26,356 nt of DNA, taken from positions 1 through 26,356 of the IMG/VR virus record IMGVR_UViG_3300037882_004584; one strand, given 5' to 3'. The notes under the pieces are model-generated. The model was given only the letters and a program-made list of their open reading frames with translations, did not search any database and was not told the DNA's origin. The translations under genes were made by a program, and so were the position numbers. Source of the DNA: a virus. How positions within the stretch are numbered: the stretch's first letter is position 1; every line of letters begins with the position of its first letter. Shown one piece after another: positions 16,202 through 24,744 of the stretch.

Positions 16202-18235
16202 TTAACCTCGACGGGAAAGACGGCTGTGGCGACGACTGAAAGTAATTGAGCGGCCAGTGAGCGTGGGCGGTAAATCCGGCCGCACGGTTGGCTGTGAGGT
16301 GACTGGCGGCGGATCATCGGGGAAGGCGACGGCGATGTGTGCACGCGCCAACGCTGCGGCGTACACGGCGCAGTCCAGAAAATGGTTCGCGGCGTTGGTA
16401 GTAATTTTTCGATACACCCGACGACCACGGAATTCGGTTGGACGTTCTGAAATTAAATGGCGGATGACGGCGCTGTGGGCCTTGAGGCCGGAAGGTAAAT
16501 GGCGTGAGCGTGGGCCTGGGCTAAGCAGGTAGCCATTTTGAATATAAGCTTTCACCAGGTCGCCGACGATCAGCCACAGCGTCCATTGGCCGTAGTCGTC
16601 CATTTGCAGACGCGGTTCATACCACGAACGTTTGCCATCGAGTTTCGCGCCTTCACTGCGTGAAACGGGTTGATCAGTGTCCCCATCGCCAACACCTTTG
16701 ACGGCGTTCCAGTGCGGGTGATCGCGCAGAAAATAACGCATGTCATCTTGTAAATATCCGACGTCGGTGGTGCGCAATAAAACCGATTCGCGTTGTGATT
16801 GATCGCCTGCTTTTTCAAATCCATTATCGAGAATGCGATCGATGCGCATCATCGCGGCGCGGCGTTCATCGCGGGTCGGTATTTGATCGCTGGGAATTTC
16901 TCCGCCATCGAGGCGGGTAATAGTTTCGGTACCGGCGGCAACCAGGGCTGAGCGTAGGTTGCGGTCATAGGATTCGACCCACCAATAAATCCAGCGTAAT
17001 TGCACGTCACAACCGCACGACAGGAATTCTGACCAGGCAGGAATTTCACCCGGACCGTATGAGGATGATTCCGAAATAGCGTGCAGATGCTTGGCTGATA
17101 GTTCGGCGGGTTTACTGGTATCTTTCCAAATTTTGGACAGGCGGTCACGATAAAAGCTTTGCATGGCGCTGGGATCGCCAGCCTTCACATCTTCGTTGGC
17201 TTTCCAATATTCTGAGGCCAACGAAGCGAGCGACGTCAACGGGCTGTCGATCGCTGACCAGGTGATGCCCCAGGTGGCGACCTGCGGGGTGTCGCCGGTG
17301 ACATTGTTATTTTCGTCGATCGCCTGACCGCGCATCACCAGGCGGCTGTTATCGAGACGCAACATATTTTCTCGATCGAGATCGGTGATCTCGACTTCGC
17401 AGTCTTTAAACGGGCAGACCAGATGAACACTTTCCTTTGCCGACATTTCACTGGTGTCGTCGAAATCAACGTGGCTTTCCCAATCCCAACGAACGAATCG
17501 GCCACATTGTGGACAGGCAAAAGCAACGTGCGCGTCGGTGCTTTTGGCGAGAGTTCCTTCGATCAGCGATCCGCTATCGAGCTTCACCGTGGAAATATCA
17601 ATGGTGACATCACGTTCACGTTTGCGATAATTATCGTTACGTCGACCCATCAAACGGTAGACGTACGGTACCATGGAATCAATTTCATCGCGGGTCAGCA
17701 GACGTGCGGTGATCATGGCTTGACCGGCTTCGTTGCTGGCACCGCCACCAATCCAATACGTTGAGACGCCGTTCAATAATATTTCATCAACGCGGGCGCT
17801 GTCTTCTGATCCTTGGCCGGTGGTCGGTAGCCAGTCAGGTGCATAGTCGCGTACGATGGGGCGAAACTTTGAGCGCCAGTGTTTACCGGCTAGCGCCATA
17901 TCTGGGTGTCCTGTACATACCGGATCGCGGAGAATGCCAGCGGTGTAGATTTGCGGAAGCACGTGACCCGTCAGAGTTCCGCCGTCTTGCGTTGGTTTCT
18001 TTGCTGCGAAATGACGAAAACGGGATTTACCTAACAGCCCATCACCAATGGCTTGCATTAAATAATACTGCGGGGCGTGGCGTTCGGGATTAAATGGCCC
18101 AGGGAAATCGCCTTCGCTAATATTCACTTGACGTGACCAATCAATTAAATGCATCGGCGGCGCCGGTCGTTGAAGAGACAACGATAACCACGACGCGACT
18201 TGGCGAATAATTTCGCGGTGAATCGTTTCAACCAC
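16202..18235 (-). CDS. terL: Terminase large subunit (GpA type)
   Basis: 677 aa from a GTG at 18235, chosen because GAGGA stands 8 nt before it; it overlaps the small-subunit stop by 8 nt. The open frame extends further up, but inside the other gene. A Walker-A-like loop is at 79-88 (KKPTQDGGTL), an atypical form without GK[ST]. RDEID (182-186) takes the place of Walker B. Cysteine pairs CPQC (241-244) and CPFKDC (274-279) form a zinc site as in GpA proteins. The nuclease half carries CGCDVQ (Asp410), TTDVGY (Asp491) and HFLDCAVYAAA (Asp621), the positions of the metal-binding aspartates. The protein cuts concatemeric DNA and pumps it into the prohead. Confidence 0.85.
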   Translation of the reverse strand: MVETIHREIIRQVASWLSLSLQRPAPPMHLIDWSRQVNISEGDFPGPFNPERHAPQYYLMQAIGDGLLGKSRFRHFAAKKPTQDGGTLTGHVLPQIYTAGILRDPVCTGHPDMALAGKHWRSKFRPIVRDYAPDWLPTTGQGSEDSARVDEILLNGVSTYWIGGGASNEAGQAMITARLLTRDEIDSMVPYVYRLMGRRNDNYRKRERDVTIDISTVKLDSGSLIEGTLAKSTDAHVAFACPQCGRFVRWDWESHVDFDDTSEMSAKESVHLVCPFKDCEVEITDLDRENMLRLDNSRLVMRGQAIDENNNVTGDTPQVATWGITWSAIDSPLTSLASLASEYWKANEDVKAGDPSAMQSFYRDRLSKIWKDTSKPAELSAKHLHAISESSSYGPGEIPAWSEFLSCGCDVQLRWIYWWVESYDRNLRSALVAAGTETITRLDGGEIPSDQIPTRDERRAAMMRIDRILDNGFEKAGDQSQRESVLLRTTDVGYLQDDMRYFLRDHPHWNAVKGVGDGDTDQPVSRSEGAKLDGKRSWYEPRLQMDDYGQWTLWLIVGDLVKAYIQNGYLLSPGPRSRHLPSGLKAHSAVIRHLISERPTEFRGRRVYRKITTNAANHFLDCAVYAAALARAHIAVAFPDDPPPVTSQPTVRPDLPPTLTGRSITFSRRHSRLSRRG

Positions 18236-18845
18236 GGGCGATTTCCTCAAGGAAAGCAACCAGGTGCGACTCGATGCCGGTAACGAGTTTCTCTTGGCCG
18301 GTCGCAATCGCTTGCTCAACTGCTGAGCGATTGATCGAATCAAGACAGGCATCTGGCACCGCGTGCATCAGCGGTTGCCATAATTTACCGATGGCAACGA
18401 CCAGGCGGTGCAGGTCATCGACCTGAATAATTCTTTTTTGTTTCTGGCCGAGCTCGATCGCGGACAAAGCGGCCTTGGATTCCGCGTTATCGGCCTCCGC
18501 TTTATCCTTCCGTTCGTCAAAAGTGATCGCGACTTGGTTGGAAACTTCCCGTGGCGAGGGCCGTTCTTTGCCTTCCTGGTCACCAGCGAGCAGCTTCCGG
18601 TACTGCGGAATTCCTGACTTCGCCAATAATTCGAGCAGCGGGGCCTCTGGTTGCTTCTTCGCATCATGATTATTCGCGGCCATCCAGGTGCGCCACGCCA
18701 ACTCGCAGTAAGGTGGACCACCCGGCGCGCCGCGCGAAGCGAGTTCACTCACCCAATTCCGATGCACACCCAGAGCCTCAGCCATCGCGGCGAGTGTGCC
18801 CCGACCCCATTGGCTAACCGGAGTATTGGTCGAACGACTACCCAT
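18228..18845 (-). CDS. terS: Terminase small subunit (Nu1-like)
   Basis: 205 aa from the ATG at 18845 (MGSRSTNTPVSQWGRGTLAA). A TTG two codons earlier is possible but unlikely. Residues about 18-40 (TLAAMAEALGVHRNWVSELA, then SRGAPGG) form a helix-turn-helix with the wing-like turn of Nu1-type small terminases, which bind the packaging site. The rest is helical with a coiled-coil-like charged region (KDKAEADNAESKAALSAIEL) for oligomerisation. The gene stands immediately before the large subunit, overlapping its start, and after a non-coding region that may include its DNA target. Confidence 0.8.
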   Translation of the reverse strand: MGSRSTNTPVSQWGRGTLAAMAEALGVHRNWVSELASRGAPGGPPYCELAWRTWMAANNHDAKKQPEAPLLELLAKSGIPQYRKLLAGDQEGKERPSPREVSNQVAITFDERKDKAEADNAESKAALSAIELGQKQKRIIQVDDLHRLVVAIGKLWQPLMHAVPDACLDSINRSAVEQAIATGQEKLVTGIESHLVAFLEEIARG

Positions 18846-18960
18846 GAGCAACCCCAGTCATAACGACACAACCGCTTGCAGTGCAGTCAGTTAGCACAGC
18901 ACACTTTAAAAATTCTACCCACAAAAATTCAACGCTATTGCCAAGGGCCGCCGCTTGGGC

Positions 18961-18983
18961 TGGGGGTCGGGGGAAGGACCCAC
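18961..18983. other. Candidate packaging (cos) site
   Basis: A compact run of G tracts (TGGGGGTCGGGGGAAGGACC; on the other strand GGTCCTTCCCCCGACCCCCA) lies about 115 bp before the small-terminase gene, on the side where cos or pac sites are normally found in lambda-type phages. The location and composition fit a cohesive-end site, but no terminase-binding repeats are identified, so this is inference only. Confidence 0.3.
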
Positions 18984-19274
18984 GTAAAAGGCTGTAAACA
19001 CTGGGCTTATGGCTTCGTTGTAAGTCTAGTAAATATATCGGTGTGTCATTCAAGTGTACGGCTTTTGAGCAGGCCAAAGTCAAGCAAATACGCCCATTGG
19101 TCGCATACAAAACAGCGCAAGCGGAGCTTGCTGCCGCATACTTCCCTGTCTGATTATCTAGTGCGATTGCGTGCGGAAATAAGACTAACCGAGCTGCCCT
19201 AGCCTCGGGTTGCCCTTGGGGGGCATGGGGGGAAAGATGTAAGGTATTGAGAGACAAGCACTTATCGTGGCGGA

Positions 19275-19543
19275 GTTGCCCCACGGTTGCCCCTGTTCCC
19301 ACCTGTTCCCACTCAACTGACCAAAGTGGGAACAACATAAGGCCATACAATAACAGTAGATAAGTATGTCTGTTCCCATTATTCCCACTATTCCCAGTAT
19401 AAATACATCTACACACATGCGCACACATGTCATGAAGAGACAGTGAAATAAGTGGGAATAGTGGGAACATGGATATAAGTCCTTGTCTGATATCGGTTGC
19501 GCGTTCCCACTGAGGTGGGAACGCGGTGGGAACAGTGGGAACA
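19275..19543. repeat. Iteron array, candidate origin of replication
   Basis: Twelve copies of the core GTGGGAA (or its complement TTCCCAC/T/G) occur between 19294 and 19543. TTCCCA-oriented copies start at 19294, 19304, 19371, 19380, 19389 and 19502; TGGGAA-oriented copies start at 19326, 19452, 19461, 19515, 19526 and 19535. Several are head-to-tail with a 9-bp period (19371/19380/19389, 19452/19461, 19526/19535). Two degenerate copies (GTTGCCCC) precede them at 19275 and 19286. The array ends 3 bp from the primase-helicase stop codon. Dense direct repeats beside a replication-initiator gene are typical of phage and plasmid origins; the copies are too short and too close to be CRISPR repeats. 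Confidence 0.75.
19501..19524. repeat. Perfect 10-bp inverted iteron pair
   Basis: GCGTTCCCAC (19501-19510) and GTGGGAACGC (19515-19524) are exact reverse complements around TGAG. It joins two iterons head to head inside the array, 23 bp beyond the primase stop codon. As RNA it would also form a stable stem after the primase message, so it may serve both as a binding site and as a transcription end, though no T-run follows. Confidence 0.75.
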
Positions 19544-19546
19544 GAA

Positions 19547-22327
19547 CTAGGTCACGCCGCCCTCGTCGAAGCATTGCCATGCCTTGATGGTGAAGCGCAC
19601 GGCGCGGCCACCGTCGCGCCGCCTGACCTTTAAATGTTTATCCTGTCGCTCGATCCACTCGCGATCAGCCCACTGCTTTAGAATGCGATTCTCGCCCCCG
19701 TGCACGCGGAATAACGGTTCGATCTGGGGGTGAAGTGGATCAACGTCGAGCTTGTCCGTGCCACCTGTCGGCAAGTACGAGCGCCAGGCCATCGGTCGCC
19801 CTTGAATACTGATGACATTTTTAGCATTCGGCTTCAGCGTCGGATCGTCTGGATAATCGAACCAACTTTGGTTGAGCACCGTTGACATCACCTGGTGCAA
19901 ACAATTTGTTTCGCGATCAATGACACCCTTACGTTGCGCAATAATCTTGCGCCGAAGCCATTCTAAGAGCCGATCTATTTGCAGATCCAACCCGCTGATG
20001 CGAGCCAATGCGATCGCACCTTGCTCAATTAGAGCCAGGGATTCAGGATCGTCGCCGGTTAGACTACTATTTTCCTTACGTATGGCGGCCGCACGTGCGT
20101 GTAATTGCTCAATCCATTGCGTAACGGTTTTCGTTCCAATGAATTCGGCAATTGGCCCAGCGATGGTTCCCGTATGTCGCGTGCCTGCTTGCAGCGCTTT
20201 CGCAGTCGCTTCATCTGGGCATGGCGCACCATCAAGCTCGATCACGCGATACAACACGCCGAGATTTTGCCCAGGCAGCACAGGTGCCTCGGCCGCATAA
20301 AATCCCACCCCGTAACGTCGCTCACCGCCACTTGCCGTACGATCTTTCGTTGACGTCACGCGTCGCTGACCATTAGCCAAGAAATATAAAGCGTCAGCAG
20401 TCGCATGCGGATGCAATTCAGTAAGCTGCTGTAATTCATCCAGCATAATTGGTAGATCAGGCAATTGAATGGCGCGATCTTGAATACCCTTAGCCGTGGA
20501 GCTCGCCGGTAACCGCATCAAGTCCGCATCAGCCCACATCGCCAACGCATAATCAATTGCTGAGCCCTTACCTGACGAACTCGGCCCCATTAAACCAATA
20601 ATCGGATTACGTGAGCCCATTAAACGCGACCAGGGGGCCGCTGCGGATAAGCACGCTACGGCCAACGCAGTATAACCGTCATCGTCAGGCAATTTAGACA
20701 GGTACGTCAGGCCCGACATCCAGCCCTCGATTTTTCCGTGCGAAGGCAATGCCCCGCCAATATATTCAACGCTGGCGTGTTCACCGACGCCAGGAAATAC
20801 CCAACGACGACTACCGTTCACACCACACCAGCCAATACGTGATGTGACATCGATGCGCGCTTGCGTTACCGAAGCGCGAGCTTCGGTCAAATAAACCGCG
20901 CAATTTTCAGCTTGTCGCTTAGCGACTGGACCATCAGGCAAATGAATCAACGGATGCCCAAGCTTTAAATCGTATTCAGACACCCATTGGAATTTCGTCT
21001 CGTGGCCTGGGGTTTTCCATCCCAGTTTCCACCAGGTGCCGCCGCTGGCGACATCATTGCCTGCACGTTCCGGCCAAATGGGCAAACCAGAAACCCGTTT
21101 ATTGACGCGCGTTTTGTATTCACCCTCGGCATTCATTTCGACTGGCGACACTCCCATATCGCTCAATGACCAGCGGCGATTTAATTGTTTCAGATCAATT
21201 CCACCAAATTGCGGGTCTTTATCGTCATCAGATGGTGGTGCAGGCAGCGATGGTGGTTCGTGGTTTCCGCCGTCATGGTTAGCAAATAGATCTTCATGGT
21301 CCGCCGGTGCCGAATCCTGCTTATCAAACCGTGGTGCGCGCGCTTTAATATCGACCGCGTTATGTTTTCGCTTCTGCGATCGCGCGGTGCGACAAAGCCG
21401 CTCGACTTCGCTGTCGATATTTTTCCATCCGCACCGGCTAACAAAATCTTCAACGACTTGATAGACCAACGAGTCGCTAGAAATAATTCCGTCCTGTAGG
21501 CGTCCAAATCCTTCGCACGCAATGGTAAAGGCGGCCGTGTCGTTGCCCTTACCATTATCGTTAGCGCCACTGGCGCGCGTATCCTTGAACGATGCCCATT
21601 TACGAAACGCTTGATCTTGCAGCGCGAATTCACCGCCAGCGCTCGGACGTTGCGCCATTGGTCGAACAGGTCGCGTACTCGCTGGCTCCGGACATAAACC
21701 AACGCGTGAAGCGGCTCGTTGATAAACGTCGCTCAAGGTAGAATAATCAACGGGATGTGCAGCAATAATTTCAGCAATGGTCAAATGCGGTAAATCTGGT
21801 TCCACGTGAAACAAGGACACTAATATAGGGTCACTTTTATTGTGCATGAATCCAGGAACGCGCATAACGCGGGTAATATCTTTGACCGATTCATCAGACT
21901 GGAACGCGCACGCTAAGTGTACTTGTGCGCCCGAAAAATCAGCAGGATTCTGTCCCTCAGAGAGCAACCAGTAGGCGTGCCAATGCGTCGCGTCACGCCT
22001 GACTACGATGTGCGGTTGCAATTTCCACGTGGTTGGGATTTCAGCGGTACCATCAACGTCGATAAATAACGCACGCAATTTGGTCACGTTATGCAGCTCG
22101 CGACCCTTACCGTCGGTTTCATTCACGCACACGTACACACCGGCGCCGCGACTATTCACTAACCCTAACGCCGCCTGCATATTACCCAAACAAGCGTGGT
22201 TAATCATCGCTAATTCACGATCTTTGCGATCCTTTTTATCGTCGAATGTCTGCCACGTCACCGGCACTAGTTCAGAGCCAGTCAACGCGAACAAATAACC
22301 AAAAGCATCGTTCCAGTTGACAGTCAT
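19547..22327 (-). CDS. Primase-helicase: AEP (RepB-type) primase plus DUF927-type ATPase
   Basis: 926 aa; the start overlaps the helicase stop (TGATG), with GGAG upstream. N-terminal primase: GVYVCVNETDGKGRE leads to ALFIDVDG (metal-binding Asp90 and Asp92), then THWHAYW (His117) and RVMRVPGFMHNK, the three motifs of archaeo-eukaryotic-type primases of the RepB family. Residues about 210-370 are a linker with a helical domain. From about 385 a DUF927-like module follows, with Walker A GPSSSGKG (581-588, Lys587), Walker B LPIMLDE (Asp630, Glu631) and a VTSTKD segment. The enzyme should both unwind and prime at the phage origin, and it may bind the iterons that follow the gene. Confidence 0.85.
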   Translation of the reverse strand: MTVNWNDAFGYLFALTGSELVPVTWQTFDDKKDRKDRELAMINHACLGNMQAALGLVNSRGAGVYVCVNETDGKGRELHNVTKLRALFIDVDGTAEIPTTWKLQPHIVVRRDATHWHAYWLLSEGQNPADFSGAQVHLACAFQSDESVKDITRVMRVPGFMHNKSDPILVSLFHVEPDLPHLTIAEIIAAHPVDYSTLSDVYQRAASRVGLCPEPASTRPVRPMAQRPSAGGEFALQDQAFRKWASFKDTRASGANDNGKGNDTAAFTIACEGFGRLQDGIISSDSLVYQVVEDFVSRCGWKNIDSEVERLCRTARSQKRKHNAVDIKARAPRFDKQDSAPADHEDLFANHDGGNHEPPSLPAPPSDDDKDPQFGGIDLKQLNRRWSLSDMGVSPVEMNAEGEYKTRVNKRVSGLPIWPERAGNDVASGGTWWKLGWKTPGHETKFQWVSEYDLKLGHPLIHLPDGPVAKRQAENCAVYLTEARASVTQARIDVTSRIGWCGVNGSRRWVFPGVGEHASVEYIGGALPSHGKIEGWMSGLTYLSKLPDDDGYTALAVACLSAAAPWSRLMGSRNPIIGLMGPSSSGKGSAIDYALAMWADADLMRLPASSTAKGIQDRAIQLPDLPIMLDELQQLTELHPHATADALYFLANGQRRVTSTKDRTASGGERRYGVGFYAAEAPVLPGQNLGVLYRVIELDGAPCPDEATAKALQAGTRHTGTIAGPIAEFIGTKTVTQWIEQLHARAAAIRKENSSLTGDDPESLALIEQGAIALARISGLDLQIDRLLEWLRRKIIAQRKGVIDRETNCLHQVMSTVLNQSWFDYPDDPTLKPNAKNVISIQGRPMAWRSYLPTGGTDKLDVDPLHPQIEPLFRVHGGENRILKQWADREWIERQDKHLKVRRRDGGRAVRFTIKAWQCFDEGGVT

Positions 22328-23292
22328 CAGACTAATTCTCCTACAGGATTACCCTTGTGATTCGCGATCGCCCGCAACCGATCTGGCGCCGGACGGTGAT
22401 ATAAATCCTCATAGATACCGGCCTTCACCGGCATCCATGGCGGTGGTTTTTCGCACCAGCGATCCTGGTAACGATAAAAAACCCAGCCTAATTTCTTGTT
22501 GCGATGCCGCGCAATTTCGACATGCACCTGATACCACTGATAGCGATCAGCCTCATCGGCGGGCGTCAATTCGCGCATTTCCAATTCGCGCCGCTCAGTC
22601 GCCATGCCGCGCTCATTAATGCTTTCCTGCAATGCGGTGCGACAGGTCGGGCACTGTTCTGGAAATGGCTTCAACATCACCAGTGAACATTTAGGACAAA
22701 TCAGTACCGGAGGACGAACGACACGGCTGCCCTTCGTGTCCTTTTCTTCATTCAGTGAATAAATATCAGCCTGATCAGGCACGCCAAAGCGATGCCCATT
22801 CGCCGCATGATCTAAAATTAAACCGTCTCTTTTCCCAGGCGCAGGGCGCATAATACGCCCACACATTTGACGCCATAAACTACGTGATTTTGTTGGCCGT
22901 GCCTCAATCAAACACGACAGATCAGGCAGATCAAAGCCCTCCGTCAACAACGCCACGTTCCAAACGATTTGCAATTTACGCGCTCGCAAATCAGCTAAAA
23001 TACGTGAACGTTGCACCTCGTCCATTTCGCCATCGATTGATTCAGATGCGATACCAGCCTGTCGGCACGCCTCCGCTAAATGCTGACAGTGCTCAACCGT
23101 ACAGCCAAAGCCAATCGTCAGCCGACCAACCGCATGCTGTTTCCAGGTAGCAATAATTTCCTGCGTAGGACCAGTACGATCTAACACCTTTGCCGCGTCT
23201 TCCGTTCGGTATTCGCCAGCGCGAACATGCACCGAATTCAATTCTTCCGGTGGCGGCGGTGCGAACGTGCGCGTCGGAACCAAATAATGGTC
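22327..23292 (-). CDS. SF2 helicase, C-terminal half (out of frame with N-terminal half)
   Basis: About 321 residues in the -1 frame relative to the N-terminal half, readable from GAC at 23292 (DHYLVPTRTFAPPPPEEL). The first potential start is a TTG at 23283 without a ribosome site, so independent translation is doubtful. It contains the second RecA-like domain: motif IV region RLTIGFGCTVEHCQHLA, motif V LLTEGFDLPDLSCLI, and motif VI RQMCGRIMRP. These are followed by a zinc knuckle, CPKC and CPTC (15-residue spacing), and a C-terminal Trp/Arg-rich domain (WVFYRYQDRWCEKPP). With the N-terminal half it forms a 512-residue DEAD/DEAH helicase of usual phage length. Confidence 0.8.
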   Translation of the reverse strand, partial: DHYLVPTRTFAPPPPEELNSVHVRAGEYRTEDAAKVLDRTGPTQEIIATWKQHAVGRLTIGFGCTVEHCQHLAEACRQAGIASESIDGEMDEVQRSRILADLRARKLQIVWNVALLTEGFDLPDLSCLIEARPTKSRSLWRQMCGRIMRPAPGKRDGLILDHAANGHRFGVPDQADIYSLNEEKDTKGSRVVRPPVLICPKCSLVMLKPFPEQCPTCRTALQESINERGMATERRELEMRELTPADEADRYQWYQVHVEIARHRNKKLGWVFYRYQDRWCEKPPPWMPVKAGIYEDLYHRPAPDRLRAIANHKGNPVGELV

Positions 23293-23864
23293 GCAATTAA
23301 TTCCGGTACCGTTGCGCCAACCACTAAATCTTCAAAGCAATCGCCCAACGCTGCGCCATCGATGCGATACGGTGTCGCCGTCAGCCCTAATACCCGTGCC
23401 TGTGGCCAAGCAGCCAGGATCGCCTGATAACTGGCTGCGGTAATATGGTGACACTCATCAACAACGATCAACGTGAACGGCTGCAAGTGTACTGGGATGA
23501 TGCCTAATTCGCGATCTACCGCACTTGGTTGCCCCGTCATCTTGCCTAGACGACGGACTAACGTCTGCACGGAAGCGACTTGAATGGCCTGGCCTAAATC
23601 AGGCTGAACACCAGCCTTGATCACGCCATGCGCTAAGCCGAATTCCGTCAGCTTGGCTGACGCCTGATCAATTAATTCCTTGCGATGCGCAAGAAATAAA
23701 ACACGCCCACCCTTAGCGACGGCCGCTTCAATCACGCCGCCAGCGATCACCGTCTTGCCGCCGCCCGTGGGCACGACCAAAACGACTTTGTGCACGCGGC
23801 GAAATGAATCACGCGTGCGATCGACACAACCGACTTGATAGCCGCGTAGGGTGGGACGGGTCAT
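23238..23864 (-). CDS. SF2 helicase, N-terminal half (frameshifted gene)
   Basis: 208 residues as encoded; homology to the helicase family ends at about residue 191. The ATG overlaps the previous stop (TAATG). Visible motifs: a Q-motif glutamine (LRGYQ, residue 10), Walker A VPTGGGKT (31-38), motif Ia FLAHRKELI, motif Ib region VASVQTL, motif II DECHH (136-140) and motif III LTATPYR. After PELIA the frame continues into TIIWFRRARSHRRHRKN, unlike any helicase, while the -1 frame continues as DHYLVPTRTF, the normal next segment. One base missing near 23290-23295 explains this. The break separates the two RecA domains, so the gene is inactive as written unless frameshifting restores it. Confidence 0.8.
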   Translation of the reverse strand: MTRPTLRGYQVGCVDRTRDSFRRVHKVVLVVPTGGGKTVIAGGVIEAAVAKGGRVLFLAHRKELIDQASAKLTEFGLAHGVIKAGVQPDLGQAIQVASVQTLVRRLGKMTGQPSAVDRELGIIPVHLQPFTLIVVDECHHITAASYQAILAAWPQARVLGLTATPYRIDGAALGDCFEDLVVGATVPELIATIIWFRRARSHRRHRKN

Positions 23865-24151
23865 TAGTATGCGCTCAATCCAGTACCAATTCCAAAAACA
23901 ATATTGGGAGATTTTTTAGTTGGTCGCTGCATGCAGGTGGTCGCAATCAATGGTTTACCAACCCATTCATGTTGAATAATACCGGCTTGACGTATCGCAT
24001 CCTGACCATTTTCAGCAAAGGTTCGATATTGGCGTTTATCGCCATCGTTATCATTTAAATTTTCTTCACGACCACGAAAGATAGTCCACATACATAAACC
24101 TGCGATACTTGGCATAGGAGAATCCTTTGACTTTAGTGTGGGACAGATCAT
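23864..24151 (-). CDS. Small phage protein of unknown function
   Basis: 95 aa from the ATG at 24151, which shares a base with the preceding stop (TAATG). An internal ATG 12 codons later (MPSIAGLCMWTIFRGREENL) has a weak AGGA upstream and would give an 83-aa form; which is used cannot be decided. No motif is recognised. The C-terminal part is Gly/Thr/Ser-rich (SPNIVFGIGTGLSAY). It lies in the replication operon directly before the helicase gene, so it may be an accessory replication or nucleotide-related protein, but nothing in the sequence shows this. Confidence 0.55.
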   Translation of the reverse strand: MICPTLKSKDSPMPSIAGLCMWTIFRGREENLNDNDGDKRQYRTFAENGQDAIRQAGIIQHEWVGKPLIATTCMQRPTKKSPNIVFGIGTGLSAY

Positions 24152-24744
24152 TAGACCGATGCCGCAATTATTTTATTTGGACTAAAGAAGTCACTTTTAT
24201 CGATCCAGCGATCACCAAAGGGATGGAATCCCCATCGCCGCCGACGTGGACCAGTCCGGACTAGGGTAAACGTACCTGGTTGCACCTGGCCAACACAGTG
24301 CAAATCCTCTGCTTGGTGCTCCACGCGATTGCCCGCGTAATAATACCGCTTTTCAGAATCCCACACTGGACCCCATAAAGAACGCTGCGGCCAATTAATC
24401 GGCGGAACATGTTCAACGTATCCGCCTGCTAAAATATCAGTGGTGAAATCCCATGGATGATCATGCAGACAATTATCGTCATCCGCCTGGGCAAAATAAT
24501 GCAGCAAAAAACTGGCGCCTGACTCAAGCTCGCGTTTCCCGTCATCACTAAAAACCAAATTCGGTTCTGTCAGCCAGCAGCGAAGTAAATAGAGGGAAGA
24601 GTTGTCGCGTGAGGGAATCGCAACGAATCGCTTTTCATCAACTGCCTCAATGGCCGCTGTTTTGTACCAGGCTTCCCCATCAATGCCACAATTGGCCCAA
24701 GATTCGATTAAAGCATCTAATTGTTTTTCGATGACTGGATTCAC
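24151..24744 (-). CDS. Cupin-fold phage protein
   Basis: 197 aa, GTG start overlapping the stop of the 50-aa gene (GTGA). Residues 94-111 read HDHPWDFTTDILAGGYVE: two histidines (His94, His96), then the G-x-Y-x-E strand of a cupin barrel. Later, HQAEDLHCVGQV (His149) and TLVRTGPRRRRWGFHPFG complete the usual second cupin strand. Such HDHPW proteins occur in many tailed phages beside replication or DNA-modification genes; their reaction is not established. The N-terminal helix (IEKQLDALIESWANCGIDGE) is an addition of about 40 residues. Confidence 0.65.
   Translation of the reverse strand: MNPVIEKQLDALIESWANCGIDGEAWYKTAAIEAVDEKRFVAIPSRDNSSLYLLRCWLTEPNLVFSDDGKRELESGASFLLHYFAQADDDNCLHDHPWDFTTDILAGGYVEHVPPINWPQRSLWGPVWDSEKRYYYAGNRVEHQAEDLHCVGQVQPGTFTLVRTGPRRRRWGFHPFGDRWIDKSDFFSPNKIIAASV

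Follow-up and report, generated by a model that had tools for sequence, protein, structure and literature searches.

An iteron array directly after a primase–DUF927 helicase gene as the probable replication origin of a tailed phage

We propose that a dense array of short repeats in an IMG/VR phage fragment of 26,356 bases (the window, meaning the whole stretch of DNA analysed) is very probably the replication origin of this phage, and that the adjacent 926-residue protein is its self-sufficient initiator. The array (19286–19545) lies directly after the initiator gene (19547–22327, minus strand), whose product joins an AEP primase, a DUF927 helicase and a C-terminal winged helix according to Pfam, PHROGs and fold matches to Cch and SaPIbov1 Rep, and the same layout follows DUF927 genes elsewhere. 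An earlier note on this DNA had suggested a self-contained phage replicon. The iteron-origin anatomy, the rank of the array as the densest cluster and the membership of the protein in an iteron-binding initiator family all favour this reading, but the part of the protein predicted to read the repeats is the DUF927 half with its C-terminus and not the AEP.

Twelve TGGGAA cores lie on both strands, at 19296, 19306, 19327, 19373, 19382, 19391, 19453, 19462, 19504, 19516, 19527 and 19536. Ten are exact GTGGGAA and the other two differ by one flanking change, so that the twelve GTGGGAA copies in both orientations reported earlier within 250 bp stand as cores rather than as exact heptamers. GTGGGAA does not occur in the remaining 26 kb of the window, and whole-window shuffles contained it 3.15 times on average, with none of 100 reaching ten; no second repeat cluster in the window record is comparable. 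The exact 9-bp period noticed for several copies is seen at 19373/19382/19391, 19453/19462 and 19527/19536. From the end of the final core (19541) to the primase stop codon (19547–19549) there are 5 bp, where 3 bp had been given. Overall, the array takes up about 250 bp at the initiator end of a 695-bp gene-free stretch, from the start of the terminase small-subunit gene (18851) to the primase stop (19547), which is indeed, as first noticed, the only long non-coding DNA of the window. Two minus-strand open reading frames that cross the array (18838–19470 and 19185–19580), in which the repeats translate as LFPLFP, are probably spurious. An RNA element was also considered and set aside, as the array has no Rfam match.

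The cores fall into four clusters around a weak centre. An outer cluster on the terminase side (19296–19332; two copies on the minus strand, one on the plus) is followed by an inner cluster of three minus-strand copies with an exact 9-bp period (19373–19396), then by an inner cluster of two plus-strand copies, also with a 9-bp period (19452–19467), and by an outer cluster on the initiator side (19504–19541; one minus, three plus). Because the inner copies of the two halves are opposite in sense, the array forms a rough dyad. Between the inner clusters lies an AT-rich centre (19355–19452), a candidate unwinding element judged by AT content and nearest-neighbour stability; the 50 bp of lowest stability in the region (19355–19404) rank at the 99.98th percentile of the window. 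Read on the initiator strand from the stop codon, the order is three plus one outer copies, two inner copies, a 62-bp step over the AT-rich centre and three inner copies, with the terminase-side outer copies 46–77 bp beyond these. This plan recurs in most other loci with TGGGAA arrays 3′ of DUF927 genes, which keep the 9-bp steps, inner clusters about 60–110 bp apart and outer clusters about 35–57 bp from the inner ones.

The AEP primase–DUF927 fusion named in the earlier note was confirmed, with both domains scoring above their Pfam cut-offs (RepB_primase, 29.2 bits; DUF927, PF06048, 58.7 bits against 22.6). The AEP domain (residues 1–210; 21698–22327, minus strand), recognised by Pfam and by alignment with the AEPs of seven phages, has the conserved residues D90, D92, H117, R153 and R156 and is 32–38% identical to primases of PTXU04, Vibrio and Pelagibacter phages. 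The DUF927 AAA+ helicase core spans residues ~415–805 (19913–21085, minus strand; model confidence mostly 70–94). In the predicted structure, which is confident at residues ~415–815 and poor in the AEP part, residues 406–899 match SCCmec Cch (5dgk; Z 29.6 over 427 residues) and residues 341–921 match SaPIbov1 Rep (8tch; Z 26.7 over 421 residues), the next-best fold being MCM (Z 13.7). The alignment behind the model contained relatives, and the fold match to Cch and Rep is thus not wholly independent; phmmer alone also matches SaPIbov1 Rep (8tch, E 5e-5). The protein as a whole is highly divergent, with an end branch of 4.25 on the tree and a best identity of about 20%, and no close relatives of its full length were found in IMG/VR.

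The C-terminal winged-helix domain (residues ~806–926; 19547–19912, minus strand), placed by alignment, structure matches and a weak HTH_56 match, is our candidate for the iteron reader. HTH_56, the Cch helix-turn-helix, scores 10.9 bits against a cut-off of 26.2 at 19616–19690, the expected place. When folded alone, the last 149 residues reach a mean confidence of about 64, with the wing below 50, and give borderline matches to TcpK (Z 8.0), SaPIbov1 Rep residues 449–556 (Z 7.6) and Cch residues 439–548 (Z 6.7). Profile comparison from the single sequence of the domain gave E 0.013 and a probability of 3%. The TcpK sequence model NF052334 did not match the domain of the window, and reached 15.5 bits against a cut-off of 45 on the relative L094.

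Comparison with related proteins indicates which half of the initiator travels with the array. A dense array after the gene was absent in seven phages with a related AEP, none of which has a clear DUF927 domain, and in 22 IMG/VR relatives of the AEP that lack DUF927 and have usable flanks. DUF927 proteins with a DnaG-type, Toprim or AEP primase part, or with none, do have arrays after them, including a clostridial locus (L276) in which the AEP belongs to the same Pfam family as that of the window. From these comparisons the primase is exchangeable and the array stays with the DUF927 helicase half. The AEP was therefore rejected as the iteron reader, because its relatives with other helicases have no array. 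Of the fused primase and ATPase that the earlier note described as ending at its own iterons, the part that goes with the array is thus the DUF927 helicase with its C-terminal DNA-binding domain and not the AEP; likewise, phages with the same primase and without the repeats, which the note had named as evidence against its reading, were found for the AEP but not for the DUF927 half. Arrays of TGGGAAC are also present after a Prim-Pol–VapE protein (L079:1111–1285) and a Toprim–DUF5906 protein (L108:1083–1377), both with helicases of other families, and the DUF927 account leaves these two TGGGAA arrays unexplained. VapE and DUF3987 initiators were considered as equal users of dense arrays and rejected, their maxima being only 4 copies among 6 VapE genes and 6 copies among 19 DUF3987 genes.

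Two samples were used to ask how widespread such arrays are. An exact scan of IMG/VR for two tandem iterons, biased to GTGGGAA by design, yielded at least 38 other loci in which TGGGAA occurs five or more times within 300 bp, against three at most for control hexamers; most TGGGAA arrays among the matches listed adjoin the 3′ end of a long open reading frame. The second sample was picked by protein, taking DUF927 genes from 229 genomes of the class of Pseudomonas monteilii (G001) and 245 of the class of Acutalibacter (G005), and scoring any 7-mer repeated within 480 bp after the stop codon in the 36 distinct genes with usable flanks. Five or more copies were present downstream of 20 of the 36 genes against 2 of 30 upstream regions, and six or more in 14 of 36 against 0 of 30; a clear array was not seen in 16 of the 36. 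Four of 19 control open reading frames also reached five copies, one of them being the tail of a broken DUF927 gene.

The cores of the protein-picked genes vary (GTGGTAACA, GGTGGAACA, GGGTGACA, GGCGTGACA, GTGGTTACA and others), and share a G-rich first half, the 9-bp period and mostly a final ACA, often in the form GTGG..ACA. Since they differ yet keep these features, GTGGGAACA is, on comparison of the repeats, one allele of an iteron family. GTGGGAA as a universal iteron was rejected, five or more TGGGAA being found in none of the 36 protein-picked genes, and so was its explanation by clade, the label requiring at least nine changes on the tree. A motif scan of GTDB genomes returned mostly cyanobacterial simple repeats, and many tandem GTGGGAANN repeats with a 9-bp period were recorded in Okeania, Oscillatoria, Crocosphaera and other cyanobacteria (L123–L202). 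Such repeats are numerous and account for some of the motif-only matches (L005, L008, L116), which raises the question of whether the array of the window could likewise be a functionless simple tandem repeat. We regard this as extremely improbable, as the cyanobacterial runs are one-directional whereas the copies of the window alternate in strand with conserved spacing, and as arrays with different cores recur after DUF927 genes.

Records of complete phages and plasmids were also collected by similarity of the protein. The array that directly follows the DUF927 stop codon ranks first or joint first among the repeat clusters of the record in the complete phages FP_Epona, THSA-485A and phiRg507T2, the satellite phiAH14b, Legionella fallonii plasmid III and Photobacterium pCECT9189-4, whereas Jekyll, AC844P1 and pTAO100 have a weak array or none. 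The Photobacterium toruni element pCECT9189-4 (L312) is a 9.8-kb linear element with protelomerase and head maturation protease genes, a DUF927 initiator and a 13-copy GTGTAAC array. Two further contigs have the array (L057:8266–8518 and L070:4280–4579) upstream of the DUF927 gene, at a distance of about 220 bp, and not after it.

Pairs of closely related initiators bear on how reader and repeats are coupled. The initiators of Klebsiella phage P12620-1 (L240) and of a contig of E. coli phage ECO95 (L241) have helicase cores that are 100% identical, C-termini that are 47% identical and different iterons (TGTTGGTTCA and GTGGGTTAT, respectively), with the orientation order of the 11 copies identical. 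Their DNA is 97–100% identical up to about position 1260 of L241, about 33–63% identical over 1321–1920, which comprises the gene end and the array, and 96–98% identical again from 1981. L241 is a low-coverage unverified contig, for which an assembly chimera has to be considered, but six E. coli genomes that are complete or at chromosome level carry the L240 type. A second pair, L383 and L384, both taken from E. coli chromosomes, combines 95% identical cores with 34% identical C-termini and iterons GCGGGTT versus GTTGTCC, and L241 and L383 have C-termini that are 69% identical and near-identical iterons over cores that are 77% identical. In these alignments the C-terminus (the last ~100 residues) and the iteron change together and the core does not follow. 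That cores 95–100% identical differ jointly in C-terminus and iterons suggests that the reader domain and its address move as one cassette. The comparison of phiAH14b with L034 was dropped as a third swap, because L049, which has the iteron of L034, shows a similar C-terminal drop.

All main genes of the window lie on the minus strand. Replication genes occupy 19.5–26.3 kb (SSB, a split SF2 helicase and the AEP–DUF927 protein), and the terminase, portal, protease and capsid genes all lie below 18.9 kb. The SF2 helicase (22327–23864, minus strand) consists of two overlapping frames (22327–23283 and 23238–23864) that match consecutive parts of phrog_16, a split that could reflect a frameshift, a sequencing error or a programmed shift, and the replication module also holds a gene resembling the cysteine dioxygenase family phrog_4786 (24151–24744, minus strand). 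Cumulative GC skew, one of the checks proposed earlier, was computed and gave no decision on the origin: its maximum at 18.1 kb falls close to the array but also at the boundary between early and late genes, its sign is not the one that a G-rich leading strand would give, and no consistent extreme marks the array in other complete phages that have one. We therefore rejected skew as proof of the origin.

The position of the array has two other readings. The next gene on the same strand is terS (18228–18851), which starts about 440 bp from the array and is followed by terL (16202–18352), and directly upstream of terS–terL is the usual place of a packaging site in many phages. A cos or pac site bound by the terminase small subunit is nevertheless very unlikely, since arrays of the same type follow DUF927 genes where terS is far off (6 kb in FP_Epona, across the map in phiRg507T2) or on plasmids without an annotated terminase, and since the core sequence varies jointly with the initiator C-terminus. 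The remainder of the gene-free region, from the array to terS (18852–19285), could hold a late promoter or a packaging site. By its place between early and late genes with the same transcription direction, the array could also be an operator or autoregulatory region for the late operon or for initiator expression, and iterons are often used in copy control too. An operator without origin function is similarly improbable, however, given that the array comes after the initiator gene and not before it, that ordinary operators do not run to 10–13 sites arranged as mirror-image sets about a weak AT-rich centre, and that arrays also occur where no late operon comes next, as on plasmids. An origin may additionally have a regulatory side role.

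Taking the array as the origin, we infer a sequence of binding, melting and priming for the window phage. The C-terminal winged helix would bind the (A)GTGGGAACA iterons, and the two mirror-image sets would load rings of the helicase at both flanks of the weak AT-rich centre, which the DUF927 AAA+ motor would melt and unwind, leaving the N-terminal AEP domain to prime the exposed strands. Because the DNA-reading domain lies at the 3′ end of the gene with the sites directly after it, reader and sites would form one segment, exchangeable by recombination as a unit. It is conceivable, although we put it at somewhat short of an even prospect, that the DUF927 initiators of phages, satellites and plasmids have this one origin design in common, in which a TcpK-like winged helix and its array make up an exchangeable cassette with a readable code between beta-wing and GTGG..ACA-type repeats. 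If so, the one-cassette design would explain origins at the 3′ end of a gene, and the replication incompatibility groups of satellites and phages could be predicted from sequence. As a general rule, the presence of a DUF927 gene would point to the origin of the phage, satellite or plasmid that carries it. The natural swap pairs make the protein–DNA code directly testable with small domains and short DNAs.

The closest known systems are the staphylococcal and Gram-negative islands. In published work the C-terminal domain of SaPI Rep recognises iterons immediately 3′ of the rep gene, the protein apparently binding as two hexamers, and autonomous replication is described for pri-rep-ori segments of PICIs (PMC7581432, PMC6092414). 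The window fits every feature of this published mechanism that can be read from sequence, with iterons directly 3′ of the initiator gene and two iteron sets flanking an AT-rich region. SaPIbov1 Rep shares the helicase fold over 421 residues, the C-terminal domain among them, and an iteron origin lies directly after rep (PMC7581432), but the AEP of SaPIbov1 is a separate protein and its carrier a satellite, whereas the AEP of the window is fused and the element that carries it encodes a capsid, a portal and a terminase of its own. Gram-negative PICIs such as EcCICFT073 have a fused primase–Rep and, after it, two sets of iterons with AT-rich DNA between them (PMC6092414); the window, in contrast, is a tailed-phage fragment. 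PICIs are satellites without a full set of capsid and packaging genes of their own, and the window, with portal, major head protein, head protease and both terminase subunits, falls outside that description. The earlier statement that this pairing was undescribed cannot be upheld, as PICIs and SaPIs have as their standard layout a primase and Rep, fused or adjacent, and then iterons on both sides of AT-rich DNA.

More distant parallels concern single parts of the system. SCCmec Cch (5dgk) is the best fold match of the window helicase, and Cch2, which belongs to a different helicase family, uses its C-terminal domain to bind repeats that lie downstream of the gene encoding it (PMC7581432); neither has a fused primase, and the Cch2 repeats are three AAGTG copies. 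TcpK, a relaxosome protein of pCW3 (5vfx) and the best, if borderline, match of the isolated C-terminal domain, is a winged helix whose beta-wing binds tandem boxes GGAACTTTA preceded by G, within AAGGAACTTTACAGGGAACTTTA (PMC6137059). The box overlaps the GGGAAC of the array, a commonality that is suggestive only, and TcpK acts in conjugation at oriT with a box spacing of 12 bp against 9. The AEP–DUF927–winged helix fusion has been noted for the PrimQH/PrimPol-PV1 AEP families in a study that predicted a helicase function and a winged helix that recognises the origin and, unlike here, described no iterons (PMC5862659). As far as the open-licence literature shows, in which one paper names both DUF927 and iterons, the generality of DUF927–iteron origins beyond PICIs and SaPIs is undescribed; our comparison extends the layout ascribed to PICIs to complete phages and plasmids and supplies an iteron consensus. 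The layout is already known from the SaPI and PICI islands, and what is new is its presence in a tailed phage with a different AEP, the common iteron family and the cassette swaps.
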